Positions 10,736 to 55,615 of a stretch of DNA of 64,000 nucleotides are shown in pieces. A model generated the notes under the pieces. The model made no database searches, had not been told where the DNA came from, and worked only from the letters and a program-made list of their open reading frames with translations. The position numbers and the translations under genes are program-made. Origin of the DNA: Psychrobacillus glaciei (lineage in GTDB: Bacteria > Bacillota > Bacilli > Bacillales_A > Planococcaceae). Position 1 is the stretch's first letter. Each line of letters starts with the position of its first letter. The DNA lies in assembly GCF_008973485.1 (NCBI RefSeq), contig NZ_CP031223.1, positions 2,294,001-2,358,000 on the forward strand, written 5' to 3'.

Positions 10736-11450
10736 TATTTAGTCCTCCATTGGTGTTGGTATTTCATTGCTTTTTTATTATGTAGCCTTTTATGTATTAA
10801 AAAAAGTACGCACTTTTTTGTTTCATAGAAACACAGAGGTTCCTATTGTGTGTTATCAATCGTTTTGCGGATAAAGTTTTTTTAAAAAAAGTTAAGTTAG
10901 AATTTTGCGAGGAACAAGGATTTGAAATGGAGCACCGAAGCTATATCGATATATGCATAAAAAATGGCGGAAATACAATTCGTCAAATCAAGTTTTCTTA
11001 GTCCATAGTTTCCTCAAAAACCCTTGATTCAGGCTCAACTCGTTTGAAAACAGCTTAAACTTCATTTGCCTTTCCCTATTTGCTCAATTATCAGTCGTTT
11101 TTGTGTTAATCCTTCTTTTCTTAAGCAAAAGGAAAAATAAAAACAGCCAAAATCCTGTTGAATAGGGGTTTTGGCTGTTATAAGTACTGTTAGTTATTTG
11201 CGTTAAATAATCCATCATGAGAACGTTGGGACATGAATGGATAGAAACGATGGAAATCTATTTAGAGAAAATATTCTCACAAGAAAATTACGCAATTCAT
11301 AGTTGGAAACAGGAGTTGTTTGAAGAGTATAAATAATATAAGCGATTTAAAGACTTTCGTTGAAAATGAACAAGTTTAAAAGTTCCTTTTTATCCATTAT
11401 ATAACCCTTATTTCATGATCTGATTACTTAATCATGTTTATTCATTATTC
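10736..11450. other. remnant-rich stretch before the array
   Basis: No intact gene. A plus-strand fragment near 10890-11000 reads EHRSYIDICIKNGGNTIRQI and stops. A minus-strand fragment at 11020-11115 reads KEGLTQKRL and is homologous to a fragment at 55670-55790 beyond the other end of the array. A 39-codon plus-strand ORF at 11217-11336 (MRTLGHEWIETMEIYLEKIF...) looks like the tail of a longer gene. None could be assigned. Confidence 0.4.
11143..11179. terminator. terminator-like hairpin
   Basis: ACAGCCAAAATCC / GGGGTTTTGGCTGT inverted repeat with A-rich left and T-containing right flanks. It could terminate transcription on either strand just outside the array. Confidence 0.55.
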
Positions 11451-11601
11451 CTTGTTCAACTAACCTCCTTTAGTTGAATAAAAACATAAAGTCTGCCTCC
11501 TGACAACCATGTTCTCCTAATGCAACCGCTAGCCATCCATGAAGCCCTGCTTCACCACAAAATATGCAAGAAAATTACGTTCTTCCATGGTAGTTTAAGT
11601 A
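11451..11601 (-). repeat. attC-like site s1, carries 58-bp miniature element
   Basis: Left half CTTGTTCAACTAACC...TTTAGTTGAATAA; right half AACCGCTAG interrupted by the 58-bp element, then TAGTTTAAGTACATTATTTC. First recognisable full site of the array. Confidence 0.65.
11533..11590. mobile_element. 58-bp miniature element, copy 1
   Basis: Ends CCATCCATGAAG and TTCTTCCATGG are imperfectly inverted. Flanked by TAG on both sides (CTAG / TAGTT), the apparent 3-bp target duplication. One base differs from copy 2 at 14157. Confidence 0.65.
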
Positions 11602-11656
11602 CATTATTTCACAATCTTATTTTATGATTTCAGAAGATATTAAACTACATAAGGAA

Positions 11657-12633: not shown

Positions 12634-13169
12634 GTCGAGTAGAAGGGAACCTTTCTACTTGCGGTAGATTGTGTTCCTCCCCCTTCACAGAACCGTGCTT
12701 GCGCTATTTACGCACACGGCTCCTCCAAGTCACCATTCACAAGATGTACCTAATCTCTTTTGATCAGATTTGCTTATTCTGCTATCCGACTCCCTACATC
12801 GGCATTTGGTTTCCTTGCTTAGTATCGCTTGTACACCATACTCTTCTATAAGAAGAAAAGACCGGTAGGGCCTCCCGAGTTGCCGTATCATATCCATGTG
12901 TGACGTGCCAAGGTCTCTGACTCCAGAGAGGTTTTATCCTTCTTGCCTTTAACGATGGATAAAATGTAGCTTTCTGCTGTGCTTAAGGCATCAGCCCTCT
13001 CGATTTACTAACATTATGGAGCTCAATCTTTCGGCCCGCCACCTAACTATCTACACATAAAGGCTACCGGTACCATTAGCCCTCCAAGACTCGCTACGAG
13101 TGAATGGCTAGTTCTTTCTCGACGGGAACTCCACCCGCTATATGATACGACCTAGGCTCGGCCGCACAC
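12634..13169 (-). mobile_element. ORF-less group II intron (intron 3)
   Basis: The minus-strand 5' end is GTGTGCGG (GUGYG-type). Domain V is clear near 12670-12720: GAGCCGTGTGCG, loop, CGCAAGCACGGTTCT, then GGGG. About 536 bp with no reverse transcriptase frame. Removing it restores almost exactly a left half-site like that at 46130. The junctions are uncertain by a few bases. Confidence 0.7.
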
Positions 13170-13259
13170 CTGCCCCGTTAGTAAAATCACGCATTATGTC
13201 TATAGTTCTATTAAGTTGGCAATAATCCCTTTAATATTACTATTTTAGGGGGTATGGAA

Positions 13260-14098
13260 TTGTTACTGTCAATAGCATGGTCTTCGTTTGAAGCGGATAA
13301 ACGGATAGAGGGCTTTTCTTCGCAAACGTTGAAGGCATACTAGTTACAGTCTTTGCTACTAATTGGTTATTTTAAGGATGTAGAGATGGAATTGCTGGTT
13401 ACAAATCAACTAAAGGAATATCTTGCAATATCCGGCAAGCACTTAAAACCAGCCAGTCTTGCACATCGAATCCGCTTTATGAAATCATTTTTTGTTGGTC
13501 TCATGAAGAAGGATATCTGAGTAAGAATCCAACTTCCAAAATTAAAGAGCCCAAGATAGGGAAGCGTATACCCAAGTATTTAACCGAACGGGAGATCGAA
13601 CACCTTCGTGAATCCTGTCATTCCCCAATGGAAAAAGCGATTTTCGAATTCATGTTTTCTACCAGTTGTCGAATTGGAGAAATAGTTGCTTTAGAAAAGA
13701 ACCCTATTAATTGGTACAATCAATCCGCAATTGTTAATGGGAAAGGTGACAAGGAGAGGGAAGTTTATTTTAATATATGTTGCGACATCTGGCTTAAACG
13801 TTATATTGAAAGTCGTAATGATAATAATCCCGCCATATTTGTAACAGCAAGGCAGCCACATAATATGAGTGTCGCCCAAATGAGATACATCATCAAGCGG
13901 ATTTCCAATCGTGCTGAAATTATCAAAGAGATTCATCCACACCAACTTAGACACAGCTTTGCAACTCATTTGTTGTATAATGGAGCTCCTATTGAAATCA
14001 TACAAAGACTAATGGGGCATGAGAAAAGTGTAACCACAAGGATATACGCTCAATTAAGTGGAAGGTTAAGGAAATAGTATTATCAGAAGTATTTATAA
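13260..14098 (+). pseudogene. tyrosine recombinase copy 1, decayed
   Basis: Homologous along its whole length to the intact recombinase at 46685. Lesions: TAG in place of the arginine codon after LKAY, a one-base deletion in the CATTTTTT-GTTGG region near 13490, and an early TAG eight codons before the normal end. The catalytic region 13628-14077 is still open and keeps CRIGE, HPHQLRHS and MGHEKS...IYA. Start TTG with AGGGGG upstream, as in the other copies. It lies between the left and right halves of site s2, on the strand opposite most cargo. Confidence 0.85.
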
Positions 14099-14108
14099 AT
14101 GTAAAAGT

Positions 14109-14132
14109 AGCAACGTCTTAAAAGACGTTGCT
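14109..14132. terminator. terminator hairpin after recombinase copy 1
   Basis: AGCAACGTCTT / AAGACGTTGCT, conserved after all three recombinase copies. Confidence 0.75.
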
Positions 14133-14156
14133 CTTACTGACTAAAGCACTCGTTAG

Positions 14157-14214
14157 CCATCCATGAAGCCCTGCTTCACCACAAAATATTCAAGAAAATT
14201 ACGTTCTTCCATGG
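14157..14214. mobile_element. 58-bp miniature element, copy 2
   Basis: Begins CCATCCATGAAGCCC and ends CTTCCATGG. It sits between CGTTAG and TAGTTGAAG, so TAG is duplicated. It is inserted at the same base of the array repeat as the other copies. Confidence 0.7.
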
Positions 14215-16321: not shown

Positions 16322-17776
16322 TTATCGTCTCTGTTGAATCTTCATTTCTTCCCACGAATAATTTGGTATGGTTGCAATCCATAACGTATCTCCCATGATA
16401 TCCACATCCCAAACGATGGAATCCCCCACATCAAACACTTTTTCAGATTTTCTTTCATCTATAGTATTGATGGAATAAATAGCTTCACCTCTATTTGTGA
16501 TCCCGAATAATTTTTCCCCTTTTTTAATTAGTCTAACTACTATTTCATCAACTTGAATTTTTCTCCAATTTTCCTCTTGAAGATTTCGGGTCCAAAATCC
16601 ACTTTGTGTGGTGATGAATAGCCTACTGTTAATCACTTTCATATCATAAGGTTCATCATTACTATTCGGCATGGTTATTTCGATCCACCGATCATTTGTC
16701 TTTTGCAAAATCTTCCTTTCTTCTGTTAATCCTATCAAATCACCCTTATCCGATATTTGGACCACATAAAATGGTTTAGGAACAATAGCTTGTTCCCAAC
16801 TCTCCCCTTGATTTGTCGAATAGTAAATTTTTCTATTTGATAGCACAGCTATATGGTTATTGATTGAATAATCGATAGTCTCAATCATGTGGTCTAATGA
16901 AAGAATTTTCGTTCCTTTACTTTTTGATGTAATACCTGTCCATAAATCTTTTTCCGTTGCTGCATATAATTGATCATTCTTATCAAACCAGGCGTTTGTT
17001 ACATAATTATTAACTGGGAGTTCTGTCCATGATTCTCCATTGTTATGGCTCCATTCAATAAAAGGTTGCTTGGTTGTACTAAATTGTGTTGGCTTTTTGT
17101 CTCCCCATACCACTAAATTGTTGTTTCCAGCGACAACTCCCGTAATTGCCATCCCTATTTTTGTTAGGTTATCGGTACCATTACGTATGGATAGTAATCC
17201 ACCACCGTATGGTAATTTATGATTGGCACTGACCACATCTCCGTTTTGGGCATTGAATGAAATTGAAGTAAAACGATTATCTCGATCATTTCCAAACACT
17301 TTTAGAATGGGTTTACCATCGATACTATCAAGTGTAAAATGATATCCTGTTGCCCAATCTTCTCCTTGTTTTAGTCCGTATTTATCCTTTGCTAGTTGGA
17401 GAACATCAGAGCTATCCAATTTGATCTCATCGTAGGGTATTGTTCGATCCTGAGATTGCTTATCTGGTCTAAACAACCAAATTTGCTTTTCTGAGATGCC
17501 AATTAGTACATAATCATCTGTACCTGGAACTACAAAGAACAAAGTCCAATTAAAACGTTTCCCTGCTTCTCCTCTCGAGCCTCCCATAGTTTCATCCACA
17601 CTTGTTACTTTTGTAAGTGTTGCGTTCACATTCCACTCTTTTGCTCGCTGGAATCCAATGTTAATGGCTTCTTTTAGCGTAATTTCACCATCTGAAGCGA
17701 TTGCTTCACGACCAATCAAATTTACAAAAATTAAAAAAATTACTAAAAAACAAGATATTGTTTTTAAGAAACTCAA
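16322..17776 (-). CDS. secreted beta-propeller (BNR/sialidase-fold-like) protein
   Basis: About 484 residues. An N-terminal signal peptide (FLKTISCFLVIFLIFVNLIG) is followed by a PepSY-like region (ITLKEAINIGFQRAKEWNVN, YHFTLDSIDGKPILKVFG). Then come repeats with the Asp-box-like pattern S.NNGESWTELP and STNQGESWEQAI, typical of BNR propeller blades. The start chosen is TTG at 17776, with GGTGG 7-8 bases upstream. A longer frame starts at an ATG inside a strong hairpin at 17801-17832. Exported or surface protein of unknown function. Cargo between s3 and s4. No catalytic sialidase residues were recognised. Confidence 0.65.
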   Translation of the reverse strand: MSFLKTISCFLVIFLIFVNLIGREAIASDGEITLKEAINIGFQRAKEWNVNATLTKVTSVDETMGGSRGEAGKRFNWTLFFVVPGTDDYVLIGISEKQIWLFRPDKQSQDRTIPYDEIKLDSSDVLQLAKDKYGLKQGEDWATGYHFTLDSIDGKPILKVFGNDRDNRFTSISFNAQNGDVVSANHKLPYGGGLLSIRNGTDNLTKIGMAITGVVAGNNNLVVWGDKKPTQFSTTKQPFIEWSHNNGESWTELPVNNYVTNAWFDKNDQLYAATEKDLWTGITSKSKGTKILSLDHMIETIDYSINNHIAVLSNRKIYYSTNQGESWEQAIVPKPFYVVQISDKGDLIGLTEERKILQKTNDRWIEITMPNSNDEPYDMKVINSRLFITTQSGFWTRNLQEENWRKIQVDEIVVRLIKKGEKLFGITNRGEAIYSINTIDERKSEKVFDVGDSIVWDVDIMGDTLWIATIPNYSWEEMKIQQRR

Positions 17777-17800
17777 AATTACCACCATCCCATAACTAAA

Positions 17801-17832
17801 TAGGCACATTAATCATTGGATTAATGTGCCTA
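17801..17832. promoter_or_regulatory. perfect 14-bp-arm hairpin upstream of the propeller gene
   Basis: TAGGCACATTAATC, 4-base loop, exact complement. It lies just before the ribosome site of the 16322-17776 gene. It could be a regulatory stem, a dyad operator, or the terminator of earlier transcription. Confidence 0.5.
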
Positions 17833-19659: not shown

Positions 19660-19752
19660 CTTATTCCACTAAACTGCTGCGTTAGTTGAATAAGAAAAAA
19701 GAGCCGTCTATGCAGCTCACTTATCTTAAACTAACGCCTCCGTTACTTTAAG
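19660..19752 (-). repeat. attC-like site s6 (second hairpin class)
   Basis: CTTATTCCACTAAACTGCTGC then GTTAGTTGAATAAG; hairpin GAGCCGTC...GCAGCTC; ATCTTAAACTAACGCCTCCG then TTACTTTAAG. All four boxes are easily seen. Confidence 0.85.
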
Positions 19753-19779
19753 AACGATTGTTCAAAATGTGACATATTT

Positions 19780-20340
19780 TTATACTATGGCGTATAGACA
19801 AGTATCAGTTAATCTATTGCCATCTGCTGATAAATCATCCTTCTTTAATGTCCCTTCTAACTCATATCCTAATTTTTCTGGAATAGAACGGCTCTTTATA
19901 TTTGTGGATTCACATTTAATTTCAATTCTTTTAAATTTAATTTGATTTAAACCTAATTCAGTTAAATTCTTTACAGCTTCTAACATATATCCATTACCAC
20001 TAAATTTTGTGTTAATCCAGTAACCGATATGACATTTAGGTATGTCCCAGTTTATTCCCTCGAAGCTTATTATACCTATAAAATCATTGGTTCCTTTACG
20101 AAAGATAAGGTAACGTAAACTTTCTCTTTTCAAGAAGTTAATGTAAGCTATTCTCAAATTTACTTCCGTTTCATCAACAGTTGGAGTTTTTTGTGCAAAT
20201 GGCAACCAAGCCTTTAATTCAATAAAGGAATCTTTTATTGCCTCATTGACAATACTGCTGTCTCCTGATTGTCTTGGTGCTCGTAGTATTAATCTCTCTG
20301 TTTCTAATTGTAATGGAATATCTAATAATAGTTGACTCAC
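19780..20340 (-). CDS. GNAT acetyltransferase (RimJ/RimL-like)
   Basis: 186 residues. Features of the N-acetyltransferase fold of the RimJ/RimL group: LETERLILRAP at the N-terminus, FIGIISFEG (beta4), HIGYWINTKFSGNGYMLEAV with the acetyl-CoA pyrophosphate-binding region, and a C-terminal KRIEIKCESTNIKSRSIPEK segment. Start GTG with GGGGTG upstream. It transfers acetyl from acetyl-CoA to a protein N-terminus or small molecule; the substrate is unknown. Cargo between s6 and s7. Confidence 0.8.
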   Translation of the reverse strand: MSQLLLDIPLQLETERLILRAPRQSGDSSIVNEAIKDSFIELKAWLPFAQKTPTVDETEVNLRIAYINFLKRESLRYLIFRKGTNDFIGIISFEGINWDIPKCHIGYWINTKFSGNGYMLEAVKNLTELGLNQIKFKRIEIKCESTNIKSRSIPEKLGYELEGTLKKDDLSADGNRLTDTCLYAIV

Positions 20341-20394: not shown

Positions 20395-21313
20395 ATACAG
20401 ATAGGTAAGCTTTTGAAGTTATCGCCAGCTTTTCCCCCTGTTCACACCGTACATGAAACTTTCACTTCATACGGCGTTCCAACTAATCCAATTCGATTTA
20501 ATCATTAACACATTAGTAGATTAACGCCATCTGTGTCTCAATTCATCCGTTTCAATAAGTCGGTGCCTCCCGTAGGAGGTGAACCTCTATTAGTCTCACG
20601 AGAACCTTATTAACCGATAATGATTTGCCTTGCATGAATAAATGATTCTTCATTAGTCTAGTGGCTATCCCTCCATGTGGATTAGACATTTCACTGGTAC
20701 TGTGCCACCACTTTCACTGATATAAAGACAAGTTATACAACTACTAATATTATAATTATTTTCCTTGCCAACGTTTCGTTGGGAGTAAGCCCTCCACGTT
20801 ATCAGCTTACAACGTTGAATTATATCTATTATAGAATGAACTTAGGTGCTTCCTGTAAGCCTGTTAGCATTCATACGCCTCTAACGTATCATGGATTTTC
20901 ATATTAGTTAGTCTTACTCACCCACATCTAACCTCACAATTTGGTGACATACACATTTCTATGTATCGCAGTTCTAGACCCGTACATTCAGAAGTTCGTC
21001 AGCTTAACCTTTTCTTTTAGGTTTATTCGCATTCTCACCATATTCATTCAACTCAAGCATCATGAACTACACCACTCCATCGAGTAGGCTTTCGTCAGCC
21101 GAACTGTTACGGTAGTTTCTCACGCCTTTTCACCGAGCTTATAACACCGTCATTCTTACTAAATCAGTGCTACTCGACTAAGAGAGAACCCTTCAGGGCG
21201 TTACCCCTTCATTTGATTCTTCGATATAATCCTTCAATTCCATAAGGAATTGCCTAGCCTTTACCAGAGAGATGTAATAACCATCCTCTATTTAAACTAG
21301 GAACATTTCGCAC
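20395..21313 (-). mobile_element. ORF-less group II intron (intron 4), exact boundaries
   Basis: 919 bp. The minus-strand 5' end GTGCGA matches the GUGYG rule, and the 3' end CTGTAT ends in AY. Domain V is present at 20430-20480 (GCCGTATGAAG ... TTCATGTACGG, then AGGGG). Excision leaves a perfect uninterrupted repeat half. No reverse transcriptase frame; the 3' segment AAAGCTGG.GATAACTTCAAA matches the large introns, so it may be mobilised in trans by their protein (inference). Confidence 0.85.
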
Positions 21314-22051: not shown

Positions 22052-22186
22052 AGCTACTCCTCCTTAATGTTTTAATTAGACATGAAATCCAATTAGTTAT
22101 TTAACATTTCATACGTTCGAAACGAATAAAGGTTCCAGTTTTTAAGTGAATTTCCCATTTTAATTAACAAAAATCCATTTTCTGCC

Positions 22187-22258
22187 ATTGAACTAAACTA
22201 CTCCTTTAGTAAAAAAAGCTCTACTCCTTATTGAAGTAAAGCACCCGTTAGTTTAAGT
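22187..22258 (-). repeat. attC-like site s8
   Basis: Left ATTGAACTAAACTACTCC then TTTAGT; hairpin AGCTCTACTCC...GAAGTAAAGC; right ACCCGTTAGTTTAAG followed by the TTTCACAAACT tail. Confidence 0.85.
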
Positions 22259-22339
22259 GTATTCTTTCACAAACTCTATAAACCAAGCGAAGTGTCACAC
22301 TTGTAACTCAATTTAAAATACGCATACCTATAAAAACAA

Positions 22340-25926: not shown

Positions 25927-26180
25927 TTATAACAACACCTTTATTAGAATGATTTATTGTTATTTTCTCATTTTTCTTATTCAACTAACCTGCTGCTTTA
26001 GTTCAATAAGAAAAATACTTCACTCCTTCTTGAAGTAAAGTTAGTAATAGGTAAGCATTTGAAGTTATCTCCAGCTTTTCCCCTACTCCGCACGGAACGT
26101 GATAGTTTCCCATCATTCCGCGTTCCATCTAGCGATGGTATTATTAATTATAAGTTTCAAGTTACTCTTATTGATTTGGG

Positions 26181-27139
26181 TTATTTGATTATTTCTAGCT
26201 CACATTTTTCTCGATATTTATTGATTTTCTTTAACATCGATTCAGTGATGCCCAAAACTTTTATGAGTGTATTCGCCTTAATTTTGTCGGTCATGTGGAT
26301 TAATTCGTGTACTTCTTTTTGGAGAATACGTAAATTATTGAATTTGTCACTTCCACCAAGAGGCGTAGGTATATAATGGTGACAGTACACATTTTCTGCT
26401 TGTAGGAACATGCCAGTTATTTCACATTTTCCATTTTTCATACTGTACCTACTAATCCGATTATCCATATATTCGACACTTCGTGTCGGTATTTTTGATT
26501 CCATTAACAATACTATTTCCTGTCTTATATTTTTACTCAGCCTTGCAGATATTTGTACTCGACCTTCTTCGGTAAATGGGGTTATACTTTGAGTAAAAGC
26601 AATCACATTTTTAGTTTTGATGATCCCAAGAGGGAAGAGGTATACCCCGGCGATTTTATACGTTTTAGAGCCTAAGCCATAGAACTTTTTATAGACAGGT
26701 GGCGGGTTGTTAGGATGTTCATATTTACCGATAGGTTTAAGACGATTGTACATAGATGCACCTATTTCGTAGGCAAGTCGTGAGAACGCTAAGTTGACGT
26801 GAGTAGCTCTATTAAAATAATTATGTAACCCTAAGACAAAACTATTAAAACGCAAGGCATTTTGTGCGGTTGGCGATGATCGGAGTATTTTTATTCGTTT
26901 CTTTGCATCTGCCTTAATTTTCCGCATCTTTTCCGCTTTGACAAATGTATGTGCAACTCGCTTTTTTCTTTTACGATTGGCACGTATAGTGAAGCCAAGA
27001 AAAGCAGACTCATTCTTGCGTAAATTAATAATCTTCGATTTTTCTGGTGAAATATCAAGTTTTAAACGTTCTTTTAAATAAAGAGTAACTGCATGATACC
27101 ATTTTTCAGCAGTTTTCCAGTCTCGACAGATGATTTTAA
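26181..27139 (-). CDS. outer intron RT/maturase, C-terminal part (maturase domain and HNH)
   Basis: Continues the frame of the 29013-29850 part after the inner intron: KIICRDWKTAEKWYHAVTLY and LDISPEKSKIINLRKNESAF (RT domain 6-7 region), then the maturase X domain. The C-terminal HNH-type nuclease has CEITG, CHHYIPTPLGGSDKFNNLRI and HELIH. No start codon of its own is expected here. Made only if the inner intron is spliced out, giving an intact RT of about 600 residues. The outer protein would reverse-transcribe and help splice intron 1 and cleave its DNA target. Confidence 0.8.
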
Positions 27140-36656: not shown

Positions 36657-36727
36657 AAGCATCCCCTTTCTATATATTAGACGATTTAGAATACAGGAAA
36701 GTCTAATTTATATTTATAAAAATAAAA

Positions 36728-37986: not shown

Positions 37987-38060
37987 GCTTATTAAAGTAA
38001 CCTGCTGCGTTAGTTCAATAAGAAAAAAGAGTTACCTAAACATCCGCACCTTCATAAGGA
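37987..38060 (-). repeat. attC-like site s16 (right half decayed)
   Basis: CTTATTAAAGTAACCTGCTGC then GTTAGTTCAATAAG; the following AAGAGTTACC...CATCCGCACC is a weak match to hairpin and right half. Confidence 0.7.
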
Positions 38061-38072
38061 ACAATTACACCT

Positions 38073-38453: not shown

Positions 38454-38489
38454 TGATAATCTCCTCCATTAAATTTACTCCAGAATTTT

Positions 38490-38847
38490 GTATTCTACTA
38501 AACTCCCTCTATAAACATTGAGATATCAACGGTTTTCATCACTTCGTGATTAAAGAAAAATATTTTTCTCTTCTCTGGCAAACAGAGTCTTGAATTTATA
38601 GATTTTATTACCAAGTTGAGCTTACGCTTCGCTAAAACTAATGGAAATCATTAGCTTTTTTCTCCATTATTTCGATGCATAATGGATCTCTGCGATGCTT
38701 ATGACGACGTACCCTCCCATGTCTCTTAGCGTCAACGTGCTTACATTCCTTCGTTCGGTCTATTCATAAGGCAGAGGCCTGCTAAGCTGCCCCGTTAGTA
38801 AAAAGGGCTTTACTCCTTATTGAAGTAAAGCACCCGTTAGTTTAAGT
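38490..38847 (-). repeat. attC-like site s17, interrupted by the 283-bp element
   Basis: Left TATTCTACTAAAC, element, CTGCCCCGTTAGT; hairpin GGGCTTTACTCC...GAAGTAAAGC; ACCCGTTAGTTTAAGTAC and a TTCACAA tail. Confidence 0.85.
38504..38786. mobile_element. 283-bp non-coding element, copy B
   Basis: Same sequence as 31149-31431 with few differences. Junctions are clearest here: CTAAAC before it and CTGCCCCGTTAG after it, so deletion of the element restores a normal left half. Confidence 0.75.
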
Positions 38848-38940
38848 ACATTTATTCACAAGCAGATATCTGACTTTACCATGAAACCACATTAAATGGG
38901 TTATACTGCACAAACTAACGGTAAAGGAGAGATAATAAAT

Positions 38941-39242
38941 GAAAAAAATATTGCCTTTAGTGACACTTGCTTTTTCTATCTACCGACAAAGCACTCGAAG
39001 AACATTTCGGCAAACCGAAGCAGTATTATTGCCAACAGATTCTCAAAATCGAAAAGAAGATAGAACCCTCCCACTTTAATGTCACCGTGCAGTTAATAAC
39101 ATTTGAAGGTGCTCACGATTTTCCATTTGATTTAGTTACTATCACTTTTAGTAATAAAAATAGTATTGAATGGCGAACTATTGATATCAAAAGCAGAACG
39201 TTAAAACCAAACGAAATAACTAATATAACTAAGGGGTGCTAG
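38941..39242 (+). pseudogene. DUF3888-like exported protein, frameshifted
   Basis: ATG 38941 (GGAG upstream) gives the signal-like MKKILPLVTLAFS. A frameshift near 38980 moves into the frame TDKALEEHFGKPKQYYCQQI then FNVTVQLITFEGAHDFPFDL and VTITFSNKNSIEWRT. The pattern of the second part resembles the DUF3888 family of small exported Bacillus proteins. Plus strand. Broken. Confidence 0.55.
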
Positions 39243-39288
39243 CATTGATGGTGCAGGAATTCTTTGTGATAAAGGCACTATTTCCTTT

Positions 39289-39372
39289 TCTTATTCAACT
39301 AACCTGCGTCTTTAGTTGAATAAGAAAAAATGCTTTACTCCTTCTTAAACTAAAGCACCCGTTAGTTTAAGT
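39289..39372 (-). repeat. attC-like site s18
   Basis: CTTATTCAACTAACCTGCGTC, TTTAGTTGAATAAG; hairpin; CTTCTTAAACTAAAGCACCC then GTTAGTTTAAGTAC and a TTCACAAACT tail. Box 3 is complete here. Confidence 0.9.
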
Positions 39373-39392
39373 ACATTTCTTCACAAACTGTT

Positions 39393-39770: not shown

Positions 39771-39975
39771 GAACAACACCTCCTTAGCGTTTTTTATAAT
39801 TGTAAATACGCTCCAAAACGAAAAGAGTTCCAAAATAATCCCCCTATTATCAAGCTAAGTGCCAATAACCTCTTATTAAACTAAACTGCTGCGTTAGTCA
39901 AAACACACCCTATGTCTATAATTCTATTAAACTGGCAATAATCCTTTTAATATTACTATTTTAGGGGGAGTAAAA

Positions 39976-40816
39976 TTGTTACTGTCAAAAGCATGGGCTT
40001 CGTTTGAAGCTGATAAGCGAATAGAGAGCTTTTCGCCACAAACGTTGAAGGCCTACCGATTACAGTCTTTGCTACTAATTGATTATTTTAAGGATGTAGA
40101 GATAGAGTTACTTGATACAAATCAACTGAAAGAATATCTCGCTATATCCGGCAAGCATTTAAAACCAGCTAGCCTTGCACATCGCATTCGTTTTATGAAG
40201 TCATTTTTTCGTTGGTTCCACGAAGAAGGGCTACCTGAGTAAGAATCCAACTTCTAAAATCAAAGAACCCAAAGTGGGAAAGCGGATACCTAAATATTTA
40301 ACCGAACGGGAGATCGAACACCTTCGTGAATCCTGTCATTCACCAATCGAAAAAGCGATTTTTGAATTCATGTTTTCTACCGGTTGTCGAATTGGAGAAG
40401 TAGTTGCGTTAGAAAAGAACCATATTAATTGGTCCAATCAATCCGCGATCGTGAGAGGAAAAGGAGATAAGGAAAGGGAAGTTTATTTTAATACACGTTG
40501 CGACATATGGCTTAAACGCTATATAGAAAGCCGTAATGATCATAATTCTGCTATTTTTATAACAGCCAGACAGCCACATAAAATGAGTATCGCCCAAATG
40601 CGATACATCATCAAGCGGATTTCCAATCGTGCGGAAATTAATAAAGAGATTCATCCACACCAACTTAGACATAGCTATGCAACTCATTTGTTGAATAACG
40701 GAGCTCCTATTGAAGTGATACAAAGTCTTATGGGGCATGAGAAAAGTGAAACCACAAAGATCTATGCTCAGTTAAGCGGAAAGTTAAGAAAAGAGTATTA
40801 TCAGAAGTACTTTTAA
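39976..40816 (+). pseudogene. tyrosine recombinase copy 2, single frameshift
   Basis: Start TTG after AGGGGGA. One extra G near 40228 (GAAGGGCTACC against GAAGGCTATC in copy 3) breaks the frame after FHEEG. The second part 40274-40816 is open and keeps all catalytic residues (GCRIGE, GKGDKE, HPHQLRHS, MGHEKS, IYA). Residues otherwise match copy 3 closely. A one-base reversion would restore it. Confidence 0.88.
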
Positions 40817-40820
40817 ATGT

Positions 40821-40851
40821 AAAAGGAGCAACGTCTTAAAGAACGTTGCTC
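40821..40851. terminator. terminator hairpin after recombinase copy 2
   Basis: GGAGCAACGTCTT / AACGTTGCTC stem with T-rich flanks. Confidence 0.75.
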
Positions 40852-40886
40852 TATTTGACTAAAGCACTCGTTAGTGGAATATCAAT

Positions 40887-41108: not shown

Positions 41109-41143
41109 CTTGTTCAACTAACCTGCTGCGTTAGTTGAACAAG
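41109..41143 (-). repeat. attC-like half-site s20
   Basis: CTTGTTCAACTAACCTGCTGC then GTTAGTTGAACAAG: a near-perfect palindrome of boxes 1 and 2 only, no hairpin or right half. Confidence 0.8.
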
Positions 41144-41154: not shown

Positions 41155-41550
41155 TTATTCTATTATATATTTATCAATTTCACTAAAAGGATAGTAATGT
41201 TTTAATTCTGATTTATTTATATTAAGCTTTATCGCATCATTAGTGAGAATATACTCCATTTGGTTCACCCCGTCATGTGCATAATAGATATATTTCACAT
41301 AAGGTTCATCTTCAAAAACTACAACTACATAATATGGAGGCAATTTTACTCCATATTTTCCTTCAACAGATTTTATCTCTTTCTTTTCATATCCCTTTTC
41401 ATTCACAAGATAACTAGTCACTCTTTTTTCATATTCAGTTTTTGTGTTTTCTATTTTCAGATGTATGAAGAAAATCCCACAGATAAGCACAAGAAAGATG
41501 AGTAAAATTATTATTACTTTCTTACTCAAAATCTCACCGTTTTTAAACAT
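41155..41550 (-). CDS. DUF3139-like membrane-anchored protein
   Basis: 131 residues. One N-terminal membrane span (VIIILLIFLVLICGIFFIHL) then a domain with YEKRVTSYLVNEKGYEKKEI, KSVEGKYGVKLPPYYVVVVF and YVKYIYYAHDG, the pattern of the DUF3139 family of small Bacillus proteins. AAGGGGTG upstream. Function unknown. Cargo between s20 and s21. Confidence 0.65.
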   Translation of the reverse strand: MFKNGEILSKKVIIILLIFLVLICGIFFIHLKIENTKTEYEKRVTSYLVNEKGYEKKEIKSVEGKYGVKLPPYYVVVVFEDEPYVKYIYYAHDGVNQMEYILTNDAIKLNINKSELKHYYPFSEIDKYIIE

Positions 41551-42705: not shown

Positions 42706-42741
42706 CTTATTAAACTAAAGCACCCGTTCGTATTATAAGGT
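42706..42741 (-). repeat. attC-like site s23 (fused form)
   Basis: CTTATTAAACTAAAGCACCC then GTTCGTATTATAAGG: a left-type arm runs directly into the right half, preceded by a weak hairpin AGCCAACA...GTTGACT. Confidence 0.7.
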
Positions 42742-46129: not shown

Positions 46130-46220
46130 CTTGTTCAACTAAACTGCCCCGTTAGTTGAATAAGAAAAAAGAGCCGCCTTAGTAGCTCAACGACTTTTAC
46201 TAACGCACCCGTTAGTTGAA
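46130..46220 (-). repeat. attC-like site s25 (second hairpin class)
   Basis: CTTGTTCAACTAAACTGCCCC then GTTAGTTGAATAAG; hairpin GAGCCGCC...TAGCTC; TTTACTAACGCACCC then GTTAGTTGAAC. All four boxes intact. Confidence 0.9.
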
Positions 46221-46244
46221 CATAAAGACTTACACAATAATTAA

Positions 46245-46529: not shown

Positions 46530-46684
46530 AACTATACCTCCCCCTTAAATTCTTTTATTATCTACGATAGGCAATAATTCCTTCTTCCACTAAACTGCAC
46601 CGTTAGTCAAAACAGACCATATGTCTATAATTCTATTAAATTGGCAATAATCCTTTTAATATTACTATTTTAGGGGGAATAGAA

Positions 46685-47524
46685 TTGTTACTAACAAAAG
46701 CATGGGCTTCGTTTGAAGCTGATAAGCGAATAGAGGGCTTTTCGCCACAAACGTTGAAGGCCTACAGATTACAGTCTTTGCTACTAATTGATTATTTTAA
46801 GGATGTAGAGATAGAGTTACTGGATACAAATCAACTGAAAGAATATCTCGCTATATCCGGTAAGCATTTAAAACCAGCAAGTCTTGCACATCGCATTCGT
46901 TTTATGAAGTCATTTTTTCGTTGGTCGCACGAAGAAGGCTATCTGAGTAAGAATCCAACTTCCAAAATCAAAGAACCCAAAGTGGGAAAGCGGATACCTA
47001 AATATTTAACCGAACGGGAGATCGAACACCTTCGTGAATCCTGTCATTCCCCAATCGAAAAAGCAATTTTTGAATTCATGTTTTCTACTGGTTATCGAAT
47101 TGGAGAAGTAGTTGCGTTAGAAAAGAACCATATTAATTGGTCCAATCAATCCGCGATCGTAAGAGGAAAAGGAGACAAGGAAAGGGAGGTCTATTTTAAT
47201 ACACGTTGCGATATATGGCTTAAACGCTATATAGAAAGCCGGAATGATCAGAACTCTGCTATTTTTGTAACAGCCAGACAGCCACACAAAATGAGCGTCG
47301 CCCAAATGCGATACATTATCAAGCGAATCTCCAATCGTGCGGAAATTAATAAAGAAATTCATCCACACCAACTTCGACACAGCTACGCAACTCATTTGTT
47401 GAATAATGGAGCTCCTCTTGAAGTCATACAAAGTCTTATGGGGCATGAGAAAAGTGAAACCACCAAGATCTATGCTCAGTTAAGCGGAAGGTTAAGAAAA
47501 GAGTATTATCAGAAGTACTTTTAA
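46685..47524 (+). CDS. tyrosine recombinase (XerD/integron-integrase-like), intact copy
   Basis: 279 residues, start TTG after AGGGGGA. The N-terminal core-binding (SAM-like) domain spans about residues 1-90 (TLKAYRLQSLLLIDYF, LKPASLAHRIRFMKSFFRW). The catalytic domain has the full residue set: R138 (GYRIGE), K162 (GKGDKE), H228 and R231 (HPHQLRHS), H254 (LMGHEKS) and Tyr nucleophile Y263 (IYAQ). It cleaves and rejoins DNA through a 3'-phosphotyrosine. No integron-integrase-type insertion was recognised, so it is nearer XerC/D in form. Encoded inside site s26, opposite most cargo genes and with its own terminator. Best candidate for the enzyme acting on the GTTAGT cores of the array. Confidence 0.9.
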   Translation: MLLTKAWASFEADKRIEGFSPQTLKAYRLQSLLLIDYFKDVEIELLDTNQLKEYLAISGKHLKPASLAHRIRFMKSFFRWSHEEGYLSKNPTSKIKEPKVGKRIPKYLTEREIEHLRESCHSPIEKAIFEFMFSTGYRIGEVVALEKNHINWSNQSAIVRGKGDKEREVYFNTRCDIWLKRYIESRNDQNSAIFVTARQPHKMSVAQMRYIIKRISNRAEINKEIHPHQLRHSYATHLLNNGAPLEVIQSLMGHEKSETTKIYAQLSGRLRKEYYQKYF

Positions 47525-47530: not shown

Positions 47531-47561
47531 AAGGAGCAACGTCTTAAAGGACGTTGCTCTA
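47531..47561. terminator. terminator hairpin after recombinase copy 3
   Basis: AGGAGCAACGTCTT / GGACGTTGCTCT stem, T-containing flanks. Confidence 0.75.
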
Positions 47562-47608
47562 TTTGACTAACGCACTCCGTTAGTTCAAGAGAGCTATAAA
47601 GCAAGCAT

Positions 47609-48236: not shown

Positions 48237-48310
48237 TTATTAAACTAAACTGCTTCGTTAGTAAAAAATGCTCTACTCCTTATTGAAGTAAAGCACCCGT
48301 TAGTGAAAAG
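48237..48310 (-). repeat. attC-like site s27
   Basis: TTATTAAACTAAACTGCTTC then GTTAGT; hairpin TGCTCTACTCC...GAAGTAAAGC; ACCCGTTAGTGAAAAG. Confidence 0.88.
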
Positions 48311-48374
48311 AGGATTTTAATTCTCCTTATTTTAAAAAAGTTTTTTATTGAAGTTCTTTATCTGTTTGTTTTCT

Positions 48375-48714: not shown

Positions 48715-48735
48715 GAAACTCAGTACTGGTAATAA

Positions 48736-48864
48736 TTAAAGCAGTACTTTTTTTTCAATCGCTTTTATCCTATCTTCTAATTCTTTATTTTTCTTTCTTA
48801 CTTTGTCTACATAAAATGCAGAACTAAAACCAAACCCTAAAGCTAACCATGTAATAAATTCCAT
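48736..48864 (-). CDS. 42-residue membrane/coiled-coil protein, cassette copy 2
   Basis: Identical in sequence to 34290-34418, including ribosome site and flanks, but without the IS3 insertion. Bounded by s28 and s29. The copy is the empty-site proof for the IS3 insertion and the clearest evidence that a cassette has been duplicated or moved within the array. Confidence 0.75.
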   Translation of the reverse strand: MEFITWLALGFGFSSAFYVDKVRKKNKELEDRIKAIEKKVLL

Positions 48865-48922
48865 TTTCAATCTCCTTTCATTCTCATTTAAAAATTGTTA
48901 TTTATATCCAGATTATAACACC

Positions 48923-48957
48923 TCTTATTGAACTAAACTGCTGCGTTAGTTTAATAA
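48923..48957 (-). repeat. attC-like site s29 (fused form)
   Basis: CTTATTGAACTAAACTGCTGC then GTTAGTTTAATAA: left half joined directly to a box-4-type arm, no hairpin. Homology with the s12 region ends here, at GTTAGT. Confidence 0.85.
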
Positions 48958-50891: not shown

Positions 50892-51111
50892 TTTTATCTC
50901 TCCTCACCATATTCCTTATTTTAACTATATCTATTCGACTTTTTTTCTAAATTTCCTTCTTAAACTAAACGTTAGTAATAGGTAAGCATTTGATGTTATC
51001 TCCAGCTTTTCCCCTACTCCGCACGGAACGTGCCAGTTTCCAAGCATTCCGCGTTCCATCTAGCGATGGTATTATTAATTATAAGTTTCAAGTTACTCAT
51101 GTTGATTTGGG

Positions 51112-52070
51112 TTATTTGATTATTTCTAGCTCACATTTTTCTCGATATTTATTGATTTTTTCTAACATCGATTCAGTGATACCCAAAATTCTTATGAGAG
51201 TATTCGCCTTAATTTTGTCTGTCATATGGATTAATTCATGTACCTCTTTTTGGAGGATACGTAAATTATTGAATTTGTCGTTTCCACCAAGATGCTTAGG
51301 TATATAATGGTGGCAGTGTACGTTTTGTGCTTGTAGGAACATGCCAGTTATTTCACATTTCCCTTTCTTCATACTGTATCGACTAATCCGATTATCCATA
51401 TATTCGACACTTCGTGTCGGTATGTTTGATTCCATTAACAATACTATTTCCTGTTTTATATCTTTACTCAACCGTGTAGATATTTGTACTCGACCTTCTT
51501 CGGTAAATGGGGTTATACTTTGAGTAAAAGCCATCACATTTTTAGTTTTGATGATCCCGAGAGGGAAGAGGTATAACCCGGCGATTTTATACGTTTTAGA
51601 GCCTAAGCCATAGAACTTTTTATAGACAGGAGGCGGGTTGTTAGGATGTTCATATTTACCGATAGGTTTAAGACGATTGTACATAGATGCACCTAGTTCG
51701 TAGGCAAGTCGTGAGAACGCTAAGTTGACGTGAGTAGCTCTGTTAAAATAATTGTGTAACCCTAAGACAAAACTATTAAAGCGCATAGCATTTTGAGTAG
51801 TTGGCGATGTTCGGAGTATTTCTAATCGTTTCTTTGCATCCGCTTTAATTTTCTGCATCTTTTCAGCTTTGACAAACGTATGTGCAACTCGCTTTTTTCC
51901 TTTGCGATTGGCACGTATTGTGAAGCCAAGAAAAGCAGACTCATGCTTACGCAGATTAATAATCTTCGATTTTTCTGGTGAAATATCAAGTTTTAAACGT
52001 TCTTTTAGATAAAGCTTAACCGCATGATACCACTTTTCAGCAGTTTTCCAATCTCGACAAATGATTTTAA
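51112..52070 (-). CDS. outer intron RT/maturase, C-terminal part (copy 2)
   Basis: Same arrangement as 26181-27139: RT continuation (KIICRDWKTAEKWYHAV), maturase domain, and C-terminal HNH with CEITG, VHCHHYIPKHLGGNDKFNNL and HELIH. Open throughout. Depends on splicing of the inner intron. Confidence 0.8.
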
Positions 52071-53945
52071 GGCAAGTAGACCACTGGAACCTCCCCAGTA
52101 GCCCCTCTCAGAACCGGACGTGAACCTCTCAATTCATCCGGCTCCCATTATTCAGCCGTAGGCTTAATACCTAGTTCCCAATGTTTAAAGAGCTTAGGAT
52201 TCTGAATAGCAATCCTACCCATAAAACGTTCCGCATTTTTCTTATGACGAGCAAGTCTTTTATATTTCTTTCTTGCCCACATGATTAAGGCTTTATTAAT
52301 ATGCCTTAAACTAGCATACATTTCGGATTTGTAGAACTTCCCATAGTAATTAATCCATCCTTGAATAGCTGAGTTAAACATCATCGATAAGTCAAAGAGT
52401 TCCTTATTTGCCTTCAATTGCAGTTTCCAACCTCTTACTTTTTGTCGGATTGATTTCTTGGATTTATTACTGATAGCGGGAGTGAAATTCACAAAGTGTT
52501 TTCCCCACCTGTTTTTCGACAGTCTCGGTCTGAACGTATACCCTAGAAAATCAAACGATATATTTTCATGCTCTTCTTTTCTATCTGCATCCTTGCAATA
52601 AATAATTTTGGTTTTAGTTGGATGAAGTTCGAGCTTACATATATTCATTCTCTCGTTTAGAGATTCAAGTAACTTCTTCGCTTCTTCCTCTGTCTGACAG
52701 TGGATGACTGCGTCATCTGCATATCTAGCAAATGGATTGTTAGGATGATTGATTGCCATCCATTTATCAAACGTATAGTGAAGAAATAAATTTGCTAATA
52801 CCGGACTTATGACCCCACCTTGCGGTGTGCCAGAGATACGTTCTATTATTCCTTCTTTCGTTTGAAACGGGGCTCTTAACCATCTTTTGATGTATACCTT
52901 TATCCACTCGACTTTTGTATGCTTTTCTACCGCTCTCATTAATAAATCATGGTCTATATTATCGAATAAACCTTTAATATCGAATTCAAGTACCCAATTG
53001 TACTTCCAACATCTTTTCCGAGTGATCTCTAACGCTTGAATGGCACTTTTCTTCGGTCTGTATCCATAGGAATCTTCATGAAAGAATGGCTCTACCGAAG
53101 GTTCAAAATATAATTTCACTGTCATTTGTGCAATTCTATCCGACACAGTTGGAATTCCAAGTGTCCTTGTACCCCCAGCTTTCTTGGGTATTTCTACAGC
53201 TTTAACAGCTGGAGGAAAATAACTGCCAGATGACATTCGGTTCCATATTTTATACAGGTTATCTTTGAGATTTTCTTCAAACTCTGCTATGGATTGCTCA
53301 TCAATTCCTGCTGACCCTTTGTTTGCTTTAACTCTTAGAAAAGCTTCATATACTACGTTTTTGGATATAACATACGGCTTTTTTTTTATGCATAAGTTCC
53401 TCCCAGTTTGTTGGTTGACTTGTTTATAAAACTGAATAATATAACCCCTTTGCTCCATCTCCGTTAGGAGATTTCATTGCTACTACGAGTTATTCCGCCC
53501 CTATACATGGCATTGGTACTCTGATTCTTGTGGGGCTTCCACTTGAAATTTCTCCCTTAGCATCCATGTCGTAGGTTCCCACGTTCCACACAAAAGCCTG
53601 TATTAAGTTCACGCCGCCTTTATACCGGTCACCGAACGGACAGTAAACAGGTTTCCTCCGAACTTATCCTGAGTTAACGACTCCCCCTCAGTTTTGATGA
53701 CATCTCTACGCTTTCGATACTTCATCAGCGGTTCAATGATTTTCGTCTCCTTAATACATACCTGACAGAGTCATGCTCTGCCTTTTCCCCTAACGCTCAA
53801 TACCATAGCTTTTGACTATAGCACCTTAGGGCGGTTTGCAATCTCTACCTGTATAGCGATTGCGAGAGGCCTTCTCTCATCTTAAGTGCAGCATAGCTTA
53901 CAAAGTTTACTTTTTAAGCAAACTTCGTTTGCTTTCGTGGCACAC
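52071..53945 (-). mobile_element. inner group II intron of the second twintron
   Basis: About 1.875 kb. Begins GTGTGCC after the codons for YADD. Domain V near 52095-52135 is the same as in the first copy. Here the first exon ends GATGACT, so exon joining at TTAAAATC would give YADDFKIIC, the consensus for this protein family. Confidence 0.82.
52148..53458 (-). CDS. ltrA: inner intron reverse transcriptase/maturase (copy 2), start region frameshifted
   Basis: From KKPYVISKNVVYEAF onward it matches the 27217-28461 protein with very few changes, including RT3, RT4 and YADD. The ATG used in copy 1 (here at 53393) is out of frame because the following A run is one base longer. The frame extends instead to ATG 53458 (MEQRGYIIQFYKQ) without a clear ribosome site. 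Expression may be lowered, or slippage at the A run may rescue it. Confidence 0.85.
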   Translation of the reverse strand: MEQRGYIIQFYKQVNQQTGRNLCIKKKPYVISKNVVYEAFLRVKANKGSAGIDEQSIAEFEENLKDNLYKIWNRMSSGSYFPPAVKAVEIPKKAGGTRTLGIPTVSDRIAQMTVKLYFEPSVEPFFHEDSYGYRPKKSAIQALEITRKRCWKYNWVLEFDIKGLFDNIDHDLLMRAVEKHTKVEWIKVYIKRWLRAPFQTKEGIIERISGTPQGGVISPVLANLFLHYTFDKWMAINHPNNPFARYADDAVIHCQTEEEAKKLLESLNERMNICKLELHPTKTKIIYCKDADRKEEHENISFDFLGYTFRPRLSKNRWGKHFVNFTPAISNKSKKSIRQKVRGWKLQLKANKELFDLSMMFNSAIQGWINYYGKFYKSEMYASLRHINKALIMWARKKYKRLARHKKNAERFMGRIAIQNPKLFKHWELGIKPTAE

Positions 53946-54840
53946 AGTCATCAGCATACCTAACTATGTAGCCTTCTTTTAAGTGAGTGCGATTCTTTGC
54001 AAGAAGTTGACCTCTAGTTTTAAGTGATTTATGAAGGGGAAATAGTTCCCATTGATCCGCTACCCATTGGTCCAATTCATTTAGTACAATATTAGACAAC
54101 AACGGTGAAAGTAGGCCACCTTGTGGAGAGCCTTTTGTCGGAATACCTTCTCCATCCACTTCTGCTTTTAGCATTTTAGATATACAGGCTAGGACCTGTC
54201 TATCCCGAATACCTAAATTCCATAACTGCTTAATAAGCAATGTATGATTGATATTATCAAAGAATCCTTTTATATCGATATCTACAACGTAATGTAGTTT
54301 CGACCGATTAATTAGAAATTGAATTCTCGCCATCGCATGATGAGTAGACCGTAAAGGTCTAAATCCGTAGCTATGTTTATAAAAATGAGCCTCCGCAATC
54401 GGCTCTAACACTTGTTTAAAGCACTGTTGTATGATTCTATCGAGGATGCATGGGATACCTAAAGGTCGCATCTTGCCATTATCTTTCTCGATTAGTTTAC
54501 GTCTAACCTTCTTCGGGCGATAATTTTTAAGCTTACTTTGTATTTCTTGTACTAATTCGTACTCCGAACGTTTCTCTATGTCTACAATAGTTTTACCATC
54601 TGTTCCAGGGGTCTTTGACCCTTTATTTGACTTAATTATTCGATACGCTAATAAAATATTGTTCCTCGACGTGATGATGTCGTATAGCAGATGGAATGAT
54701 TCTTTATTTTTGGCTCGTTGATGTAAGTCTGCAAAGGTGTCTGTCATCCCGTAATAATCCCAATATCGAAGAGCTTGCACTGTGGCATCATTCCTTTTGA
54801 AGTGATGTTCCCACGTTCTTACCCGACCGGTGCAATGCAC
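53946..54840 (-). CDS. outer intron RT/maturase, N-terminal part (copy 2)
   Basis: Same RT motifs as 29013-29850 (GSKTPGTDGKTIV, GKMRPLGIPCILDRI, VVDIDIKGFFDNINHTLLI, GSPQGGLLSPLLSN, IVRYADD). Here the upstream ATG at 54840 (MHCTGRVRTWEHHFKRND) is in frame, whereas copy 1 has a one-base insertion in that stretch. This suggests copy 2 keeps the fuller N-terminus. Confidence 0.82.
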
Positions 54841-55615
54841 AGTTGAAAAATAATTATTACTTATCGCTAGACTTGGGGCTGTTCCTCCACCTCCATTACA
54901 GAGCTTTCACTGGTTGTACCCCTACCCTCATAAGGACAAATGCATTTCGCCATACCGCTTATAGCAACCGTTTCGGGTGACAGCCCTTGAGTCAACGTTC
55001 CTTACTTTCCAAGTCCCTTACAACCTAGCTATATTTTTTTCTAAACTTAGGTGCTTCCTGTAAGCCTGTGAGCTGGATACCGCCATTGTTCGGTATAACG
55101 TGTTTCATAGAAGCAATTTTTACTCTACGTCACTCACCCCATCGTTGGATGGTACACAAGTTTCCTTATGTTCTAACTTTAGACCTGTACCTCCGGAAGT
55201 TCGTCTATTCTTTTCCACAAGAAAATTCTCACCATATTTAGTTTTTCAGCCATCCGGCATATCCATTGGCATACCTTTTCCTTGAGGAGTGGCTTCAGCC
55301 TTTGTTCTGCCGACTTTACCTGAGCTTCAGACCCCATAATCTGTCCATTATGACGCATGCAGGAATCTTAATGGGATAGTTTCAAAATACATGGTTTTAT
55401 CATTTCTATCCTCGGTTATAAAGTTAGGATTTCCGAAGAAATCCCTTGTTTTTTCACACATTAGTGTTTATAACAAAACTTGTCGCGCTGCTTCGTTAGT
55501 TTAAGTGTAATGTTTCACAAACTTTCATTACGAATGGTTTCTGATTATCCTTTTATTGGTCTTTCAAAAATCAATTTTCGTTGTATATTGCCCCATTAAT
55601 ATAATAAGTTCAACA

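Follow-up and report, generated by a model that had tools for sequence, protein, structure and literature searches.

The 64,000-nucleotide stretch of Psychrobacillus glaciei DNA considered here (contig NZ_CP031223.1, positions 2,294,001 to 2,358,000; hereafter the window, GC content 35%, in a host genome of 4.35 Mb) holds, between its positions 11440 and 55515, a long array of small genes separated by repeats. We conclude that this array is probably a store of mostly single-gene modules, lying between two alternating core sites, T1 and T2, and re-sorted by a resident XerA-like tyrosine recombinase. Seen directly are the usual alternation of the two cores, breakpoints within both of them, re-assortment of the modules, and the recombinase placed in the slot between T2 and T1.

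Each full repeat resolves into two core sites which, along the cargo genes (minus strand), read TTATTNAACTAAC-GNNGCAG-KTTAGTTNAATAA for T1 (core ACTAAC-GNNGCAG-KTTAGT) and TTATTNAACTAAC-GGGTGC-TTTAGTTNAA for T2 (core ACTAAC-GGGTGC-TTTAGT); the arms are alike in the two sites, and the centres differ (GNNGCAG versus GGGTGC). Weight matrices, trained on sequences including the window copies themselves, were used to count them, and sites below the stated scores were dropped beforehand. At scores above 8.5, 23 T1 cores were found on the plus strand and 0 on the minus strand, and 25 T2 cores on the plus strand and 1 on the minus strand, that is 48 cores on one strand and 1 on the opposite one. The chance level, estimated with eight first-order shuffles at scores above 8, was about 0.1 to 0.4 per strand per 64 kb. 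Counted by eye, a T1-T2 pair or a lone core being scored as one, the repeats number about 32 between 11440 and 55515, close to the 33 or so repeats of a single polarity announced in an earlier reading of this DNA (the original prediction). The consensus proposed there, AACTAAAC-N6-GTTAGTT, is found exactly only 4 times (0 in 100 shuffles), so that this consensus is a summary of the repeats, which are themselves real. Over the catalogued loci (18 short search loci, L001-L008 and L087-L096, being omitted), 1039 of 1053 strong cores share the majority polarity of their own locus. The array and representative sites are as follows.

11440..55515, minus strand (cassette reading strand): whole cassette array, from weight-matrix cores on one strand
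39291..39373, plus strand: full site, with T1 at 39291-39323, a terminator, and T2 at 39342-39373 (scores 43.6 and 44.6)
46131..46223, plus strand: full site, T1, middle segment and T2 (weight-matrix scan, as for the next four)
34479..34553, plus strand: full site, T1, middle segment and T2
48237..48311, plus strand: full site, T1, middle segment and T2
19661..19754, plus strand: full site, T1, middle segment and T2
22185..22259, plus strand: full site, T1, middle segment and T2
41110..41142, plus strand: lone T1 (score 47.4)
42707..42738, plus strand: lone T2 (score 33.2)

A repeated block starting with GTTAGCCATNCATGAAGC was also noticed after some T2 cores, at 21375-21575, 50220-50419, about 11520-11600 and about 14150-14220. 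Two other ways of looking at the repeats were given up. Whole-window direct repeats split the families, and weight matrices were used instead to define the repeat. The TTGAAT of the T1 arm was considered as a -35 box; strong -10 matches were found 16-18 nt away in 0.3-1.0% of 702 cases, and this reading was rejected because such a proportion falls within the 0-2.3% obtained at other distances.

In the cassette direction the modules follow each other in the order T1, gene, T2, short segment, T1, next gene; the cargo being mostly on the minus strand, the array reads gene, T2, terminator, T1 on that strand. Among successive strong cores lying within 3 kb of each other, 858 of 1170 alternate between T1 and T2. 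The distance from T2 to T1 was at most 130 nt in 260 of 357 cases and 900-1100 nt in 30 (first 86 catalogued loci), the latter spacing being the size of the recombinase module described below. An intrinsic terminator in the cassette direction was detected in 265 of the 364 distinct T2-T1 segments (all loci used), with 26 in the opposite direction and a background of 3 to 11 in five mononucleotide shuffles. The "variable hairpin" formerly placed between half sites does exist as a segment, and it is usually such a terminator. For intervals of 200-1400 bp, to which the counts of open reading frames (ORFs) are restricted, the longest ORF has the cassette orientation in 367 of 430 and the reverse one in 42, 21 intervals being without any, and a single ORF of at least 50 codons is present in 366 of 409. 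The earlier description of mostly single small genes, mainly on one strand, is borne out by these figures, which together with the uniform polarity of the cores give the arrangement of integron cassettes, one gene with its 3' site in one polarity.

Positions of exchange were sought by comparing near-identical cassettes found in different settings, position by position across T1 (aligned over 33 positions), pairs below 88% or 93% identity being left out. For the 5' end of the cassette, 21 pairs from 13 families (at least 93% identity) were compared: values stayed near background as far as position 16, and identity was 0.83 versus a background of 0.44 at position 21, 0.82 versus 0.35 at position 28, and 0.98 versus 0.33 at position 31. 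For the 3' end, with 25 pairs from 7 families, identity was 0.92-1.00 as far as position 15, except position 13 (0.81), and near-background values were obtained at positions 16 (0.52 versus 0.38) and 21 (0.52 versus 0.44). Identity switches in T1 between core positions 15 and 21, and the alignments place the switch most likely within N16-GCAG. With a looser set and a null test by family, the overall pattern held while individual positions lost strength; position 15 at the 3' end stood out at P 0.006. The 5' boundary shows an abrupt switch at variable arm positions of both sides, 3 and 6 in one arm and 28 and 31 in the other. An integron-type G^TT exchange would place position 21 with the upstream cassette; the comparison points instead to a crossover in the core centre, before the G of position 21 (P 0.04 for this position by family).

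T2 behaves as a breakpoint as well. In 25 families (45 pairs) the same gene end is shared up to about T2 position 13, with background identity from position 24 and a different segment next, and in 41 families (391 pairs) the reverse was found, the same downstream segment following different gene ends. Since both T1 and T2 are breakpoints, genes and terminators are exchanged separately.

Movement of the modules between loci was apparent from 179 of the 460 T1-bounded units, which have a homologous unit elsewhere. The upstream neighbour differs in 61 of 66 testable pairs of homologous units, and the downstream neighbour in 49 of 54; this test drops units with more than 12 relatives, and some units contain insertion sequences or introns. 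A 406-nt cassette stretch found at 0.586 Mb recurs at 3.05 Mb on the same chromosome, at 98.8% identity and among other neighbours, and is also present within a unit of the window; another cassette has two copies in locus L105 and one in L111. Relatives of window cassettes were found in Viridibacillus (L056), in Solibacillus (L028) and at other Psychrobacillus loci (L041, L043), and units are shared across genera at other loci too, as by Sporosarcina L068 and Lysinibacillus L081 (90% over 602 nt). Two window intervals with recurrent copies are given here.

38005..39307, minus strand: unit between the T1 cores at 37989 and 39291, of which 406 nt match 0.586 Mb (97.8%) and 3.05 Mb (98.8%)
48725..48950, minus strand: duplicated cassette interval, identical to 34279-34504 (100% over 226 nt), with T1 at its right end

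Two pairs of fuller and emptier arrays were also found. A cassette of about 495 bp, lying between two T1, is present in L012 and absent from L042, which in turn carries about 2.5 kb (three T1-to-T1 units) that L009 lacks; in both pairs the difference lies at the recombinase-side T1, which makes the T1 adjoining the recombinase a possible insertion point. A third pair, L066 and L067, was not used as a cassette insertion, its 293-bp difference falling inside the gene behind T1. The right flank of the window is syntenic in a genome of the same genus, G015 (82% over 3.8 kb), and no core scoring above 15 was found in the 66-kb region of G015 syntenic with it, though this genome has 104 T1 hits. Only the right flank was used as a synteny anchor, because the best left-flank matches were mostly at 65-70%, short, not all colinear, and not beside the right-flank match. 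We conclude that the repeats mark cassette boundaries and that modules re-assort between loci, both being strongly supported by these comparisons. The array comparison suggested in the original prediction thus came out in favour of gain, loss or shuffling of whole intervals at the repeats, neighbours being mostly different and breakpoints lying inside cores; the fixed gene order, with repeats inserted among contiguous genes, that it named as the opposite outcome was not what we saw in the cases read, the moving units there being a gene with its site.

Three copies of a tyrosine recombinase gene lie in the window at 13.2-14.1, 39.9-40.8 and 46.6-47.5 kb, all on the plus strand and each between T1 and T2.

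46685..47524, plus strand (opposite to the cargo): intact XerA-like tyrosine recombinase, 279 aa, TTG start (NF040815 222.1 bits; PF00589 135.7 bits)
46582..46614, plus strand: T1 core on the 5' side of the intact recombinase module (score 36.3)
47559..47591, plus strand: T2-type core on the 3' side of the same module, called T1 by the scan, its CACTCC having one extra base
39873..40882, plus strand: second recombinase module, T1, broken recombinase with one internal stop, T2 (core scores 36.3 and 33.8)
13157..14164, plus strand: third recombinase module, with a broken gene and a T1 interrupted by a group II intron

In other loci the core at the position of 47559-47591 reads as T2 by eye. The intact protein passes the cut-off of NF040815 (222.1 versus 220 bits) and stays under those of XerC, XerD and IntI; among solved structures, those closest to it in sequence are the XerC-like 4a8e, XerD 1a0p and XerA 5hxy. 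Five matches with E at most 1e-60 are present in its own genome, two of them full-length and without stops. Flanks were read by eye in 42 loci and the window: most relatives with more than about 76% identity have T1 before the gene and a terminator and T2 after it; a Peribacillus-like group near 63% identity shows the reverse order of T1 and T2. In several Bacillales genera the recombinase takes the place of the terminator, with T2 on one side and T1 on the other, and in the 35 T2-to-T1 gaps of 850-1150 nt the longest ORF runs against the cassettes in 25, with them in 9, and is absent in 1.

Relatives of the recombinase were found in many named Bacillales genera. T1 was searched in related genomes, along the lines proposed earlier, and 10 or more hits were found in 41 of 200 family genomes. 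Of these 41, 27 contain a recombinase with an identity of 80% or above, compared to 6 of the 159 others (Fisher 1e-17, phylogeny ignored). All 19 searched genomes of one genus carry T1 hits, 6 to 244 each. Eight plasmid records contain recombinase relatives at E at most 1e-50, one of them at 92.8% in Sporosarcina psychrophila, and a single T1 and a single T2 are present on the second contig of the assembly studied here (19 kb, considered a plasmid).

The cores are also the place where other mobile elements are found, which, like the three recombinase copies, had not been mentioned in the original prediction. All 16 copies of intron A, a group II intron, lie inside T1 or T2; by eye, the 3 copies of intron B also end at a T1 or T2 core, as do the 14 copies of intron C that were read, out of 15. 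This eye reading was used in place of a script whose pattern was too strict, and which classed 3 of 3 intron B and 11 of 15 intron C copies as "other". An IS110-family element has its end abutting T1, directly after GGGGCAG, in 8 of 8 copies (L104, L109, L097, L098 and others), and the IS1111-attC elements of Pseudomonas offer a parallel to this. All 12 group II matches in the window run in the cassette direction; IIC-attC introns lie against it, according to an excerpt of PMC7923331. The elements of the window are listed here.

12634..13160, minus strand: group II intron remnant splitting T1 (Rfam RF02005, RF00029; exons read)
20395..21313, minus strand: group II intron after the right arm of T1 (Rfam RF02004, RF00029)
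26037..30561, minus strand: group II introns, apparently nested, splitting T2 (Rfam; T2 half at 30548)
50968..55488, minus strand: second nested-intron copy, in the T1 at the right end of the array (Rfam)
31137..32903, minus strand: IS110-family element, with its end at the T1 centre GGGGCAG (PF01548/PF02371)

The two nested-intron copies are 93% identical, one being in T2 and the other in T1. A recurrent element at 44040-45652, with a 418-aa ORF, looks IS110-like and is also seen in loci of several genera, and a 1.3-kb insertion-sequence-like stretch occurs twice, at 32985-34279 and 42744-44038 (98% identity).

Polarity was then related to replication, the terminus being assumed opposite dnaA. 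In the regions fetched from the P. glaciei genome (dnaA at position 22), the reading direction agrees with that of the replication fork for 228 of 229 strong cores. Over the whole chromosome, the 24 pattern hits in reverse orientation are confined to 0.59-2.02 Mb and the 59 in forward orientation to 2.24-4.27 Mb. In a relative, G003 (dnaA at 3.19 Mb), 286 of 301 cores read with the fork. The regions of both genomes were mostly chosen for holding hits, those of G003 (221 hits in all) being drawn from among the matches listed, so that the sample is not random, and the cores of one array are not independent of each other. Thirteen of the 15 exceptions in G003 belong to one small array lying against replication, L126 (G003:C1:3443-3449 kb). 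A similar orientation of the array relative to replication is given for sedentary integrons, in 25 of 30 cases, in an excerpt of PMC5371416.

As regards the cargo, 29 window ORFs besides the recombinase were compared with Pfam, and 14 had no match. Matches include two GNATs, an MFS transporter, two TetR regulators, a sigma factor, a beta-lactamase-family ORF, DUF3139, DUF6713 and a CPCC protein. The interval at 22.4-25.4 kb, with three plus-strand genes (NAD-binding, DoxX, luciferase-like), is outside the one-gene pattern.

41155..41550, minus strand: cassette gene, DUF3139 (Pfam), with a homologous interval in Viridibacillus arvi L056 (84% over 438 nt)
36138..36662, minus strand: cassette gene, sigma-70 family factor (Pfam), then 35348-36145, without Pfam match
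19780..20340, minus strand: cassette gene, GNAT acetyltransferase (Pfam)
16322..17809, minus strand: cassette gene with a weak BNR-repeat match (21.2 bits, cut-off 27); the homology of its relatives in L041 and L028 begins in T2

At 18692-19609, a beta-lactamase-family (PF00144) ORF adjoins a second ORF, the two being possibly a single broken gene. Tandem T-box leaders are present outside the array, at 7453-8094.

A mechanism can be proposed in which the XerA-like recombinase would cut and rejoin the cores, so that modules are gained, lost and re-sorted. Given the different centres, T1 would recombine with T1 and T2 with T2, and either reaction would excise a gene together with its terminator, or insert them, as a circle; two crossovers would swap a gene alone or a terminator alone, much as in laboratory cassette exchange with two incompatible sites. 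The enzyme presumably acts on double-stranded DNA by a short staggered exchange, and the single polarity may be kept by selection, for genes on the leading strand, or by the reaction itself.

Several observations weigh against this proposal. Recombination is deduced from sequence, and no event was observed. No recombinase at E at most 1e-60 was found in 12 of the 41 T1-rich genomes, and 28 of the 159 T1-poor ones contain some relative of it, 22 of these being 55-65% identical. Alternation is incomplete, with 205 T1-T1 and 107 T2-T2 successions versus 858 alternations. Within T1, position 31 is high at the 3' boundary also (0.85 versus 0.33; 0.81 versus 0.34 in the looser set; 7 families; P 0.01 in the null test by family), position 21 is linked only weakly to the downstream cassette at the family level (P 0.04), and position 16 is linked to neither side, which we read as exchange inside the overlap and which could be mutation. 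Terminator types are few, and the 41 T2 families with the same right side may partly reflect common terminators or ancestry. Finally, gene direction and core polarity both follow replication, so that their agreement is not independent. As a separate remark, the 55-65% identical relatives of genomes with few T1 may serve other core sequences.

The original prediction had called the array integron-like. A true integron, with attC sites folded from one strand and an integron integrase diverged past recognition, would account for the same plan of four half sites, the single small genes of one polarity, the orientation relative to replication (25 of 30 sedentary integrons, in the excerpt of PMC5371416), and the introns and IS110 element that exploit the sites. 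The integrase model TIGR02249 was over its cut-off at 0 of 23 places in the P. glaciei genome (best 88.9 versus 265 bits; 88.2 bits for the module recombinase), the 14 control genomes also being without a match above cut-off, so that this search has no positive control; IntI4 2a3v aligns with the module recombinase over 69 residues only. The consensus arms are able to pair, and single sites fold in several ways, some as long hairpins (16 full sites). An attC-like stem was nevertheless not consistently supported. Covariation of R''-R' and L''-L', between T2 and T1, was inconsistent over 307 sites (27 pairings, z of 3.0-3.1 twice and -5.4 once); within T2 z was at most 2.3 in 10 pairings, and within T1 2 of 12 pairings stood out (5-29, z 4.2; 12-22, z 3.6), the rest being at most 1.5. 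Because of this inconsistency we take the arms as putative protein-binding inverted repeats. T2 is moreover a breakpoint independently, and the base preceding TTAGT seems to move with the cassette downstream of it and not with the upstream one, so that a true integron is quite improbable. What stands of the earlier claim is a cassette array at recombination sites, strongly supported because modules re-assort with breakpoints inside cores; the integron with attC sites is not supported, with no IntI at cut-off, inconsistent covariation, a crossover apparently centred in the core, and breakpoints in both halves of the repeat. The array is not an integron in the strict sense, and the caveat that it could be a parallel or distant system proved justified.

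Other explanations do away with the resident enzyme or with the cassettes. The cores could be served in trans by the host XerC/XerD or another recombinase, as in the dif modules of Acinetobacter, the module recombinase being a passenger. Other tyrosine recombinase genes do exist in the genome, and three of the 12 core-rich genomes without a recombinase match are drafts; the cores seem unlike the Bacillus dif, and recombinase and cores co-occur across genera, the former placed between two of the latter, which makes this alternative unlikely. The repeats might also be miniature inverted-repeat transposable elements (MITEs), small non-autonomous derivatives of a T1-recombinase-T2 element inserted between resident genes. 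Recombinase module and short repeats do share their T1 and T2 ends, and the short form could be a deletion derivative. In the cases read, however, the moving unit is a gene with its site and not a bare repeat; neighbours mostly differ between homologous units, breakpoints fall mid-core in T1 and T2, and intervals mostly hold one gene in one direction. We consider the MITE explanation very unlikely. Ordinary homologous recombination among repeated terminators, without a site-specific enzyme, seems the least plausible: the repeats, with their terminators, are similar over 30-90 bp, but the breakpoints are in the core centre although the arms are also conserved, arm positions on the two sides switch sharply at the 5' boundary, and polarity is uniform.

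Re-sorting of modules by the resident recombinase, which we retain, can be set beside known systems. The integrase gene of integrons runs against the cassettes, as does the Psychrobacillus recombinase, and a separate exchange of genes and terminators is, to our knowledge, not a feature of integrons. Sedentary chromosomal integrons (IntI, attI, attC) resemble the array by their many, mostly single-gene cassettes with a site 3' of the gene, by their single polarity and, in the excerpts cited, by orientation relative to replication (PMC5371416) and by group II introns in the sites (PMC7923331). The window introns lie with the cassettes, and IIC-attC introns against them (same excerpt of PMC7923331). 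The array differs further by a recombinase that is XerA-like, scores below IntI, and is found inside the array in several copies, by cassettes that carry terminators, by a crossover apparently centred in the core and by breakpoints in both halves of the repeat.

The function of known Xer proteins is the resolution of chromosome dimers at dif. The module recombinase is like the XerA or single Xer recombinases in passing the NF040815 cut-off, and unlike them in being multicopy, often broken, and located in cassette arrays. The dif modules of Acinetobacter plasmids, according to an excerpt of PMC13141974, also consist of genes flanked by Xer-type cores with a short central spacer, with two kinds of modules (C and D) that must alternate, in-core crossovers and module shuffling; an insertion sequence family targets their sites (excerpt of PMC10132070). 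The T1 and T2 breakpoint profiles likewise place the crossover within the core spacer. The Acinetobacter system is plasmid-borne and has one kind of site, pdif (XerC-6 bp-XerD), whose copies alternate in inverse orientation and are acted on by XerC and XerD (same excerpt of PMC13141974). In Psychrobacillus, long arrays on the chromosome contain two sites in direct orientation that differ in their centres, one type of module is mostly terminator, and the array itself carries a recombinase. The inverse C/D orientation with XerC/XerD half sites is not found, the cores being direct with two centres. The array works like both integrons and dif modules. It does not qualify as an integron for want of an IntI, site and crossover being doubtful as well, nor as a set of dif modules, because of the orientation of its sites.

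We know of no system that brings together a direct pair of different sites, distinct modules for genes and for terminators, and a XerA-like recombinase borne by the array, and because of this combination we class the array as a new kind; on a cautious view it could be a variant of Xer-type cassette systems. We lean somewhat towards an independently evolved counterpart of the integron in Bacillales, with two incompatible sites, coding and terminator modules as separate currencies, and the recombinase in the terminator slot. No description of a two-site cassette system was found in the literature covered, that is titles and the beginnings of abstracts among the matches listed, a scope outside of which lie most subscription journals and bioRxiv. 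Firmicutes are almost without integrons in the IntegronFinder 2.0 survey, an excerpt of which (PMC9024848) gives one complete integron and a few CALIN (clusters of attC sites lacking an integrase). If our reading is true, Gram-positive bacteria would have a cassette economy of their own and many small unknown genes an origin, two possibly orthogonal sites and a small recombinase would be available for genetic engineering, and the similar parasites that hit both integrons and the Psychrobacillus arrays would make their convergence testable.

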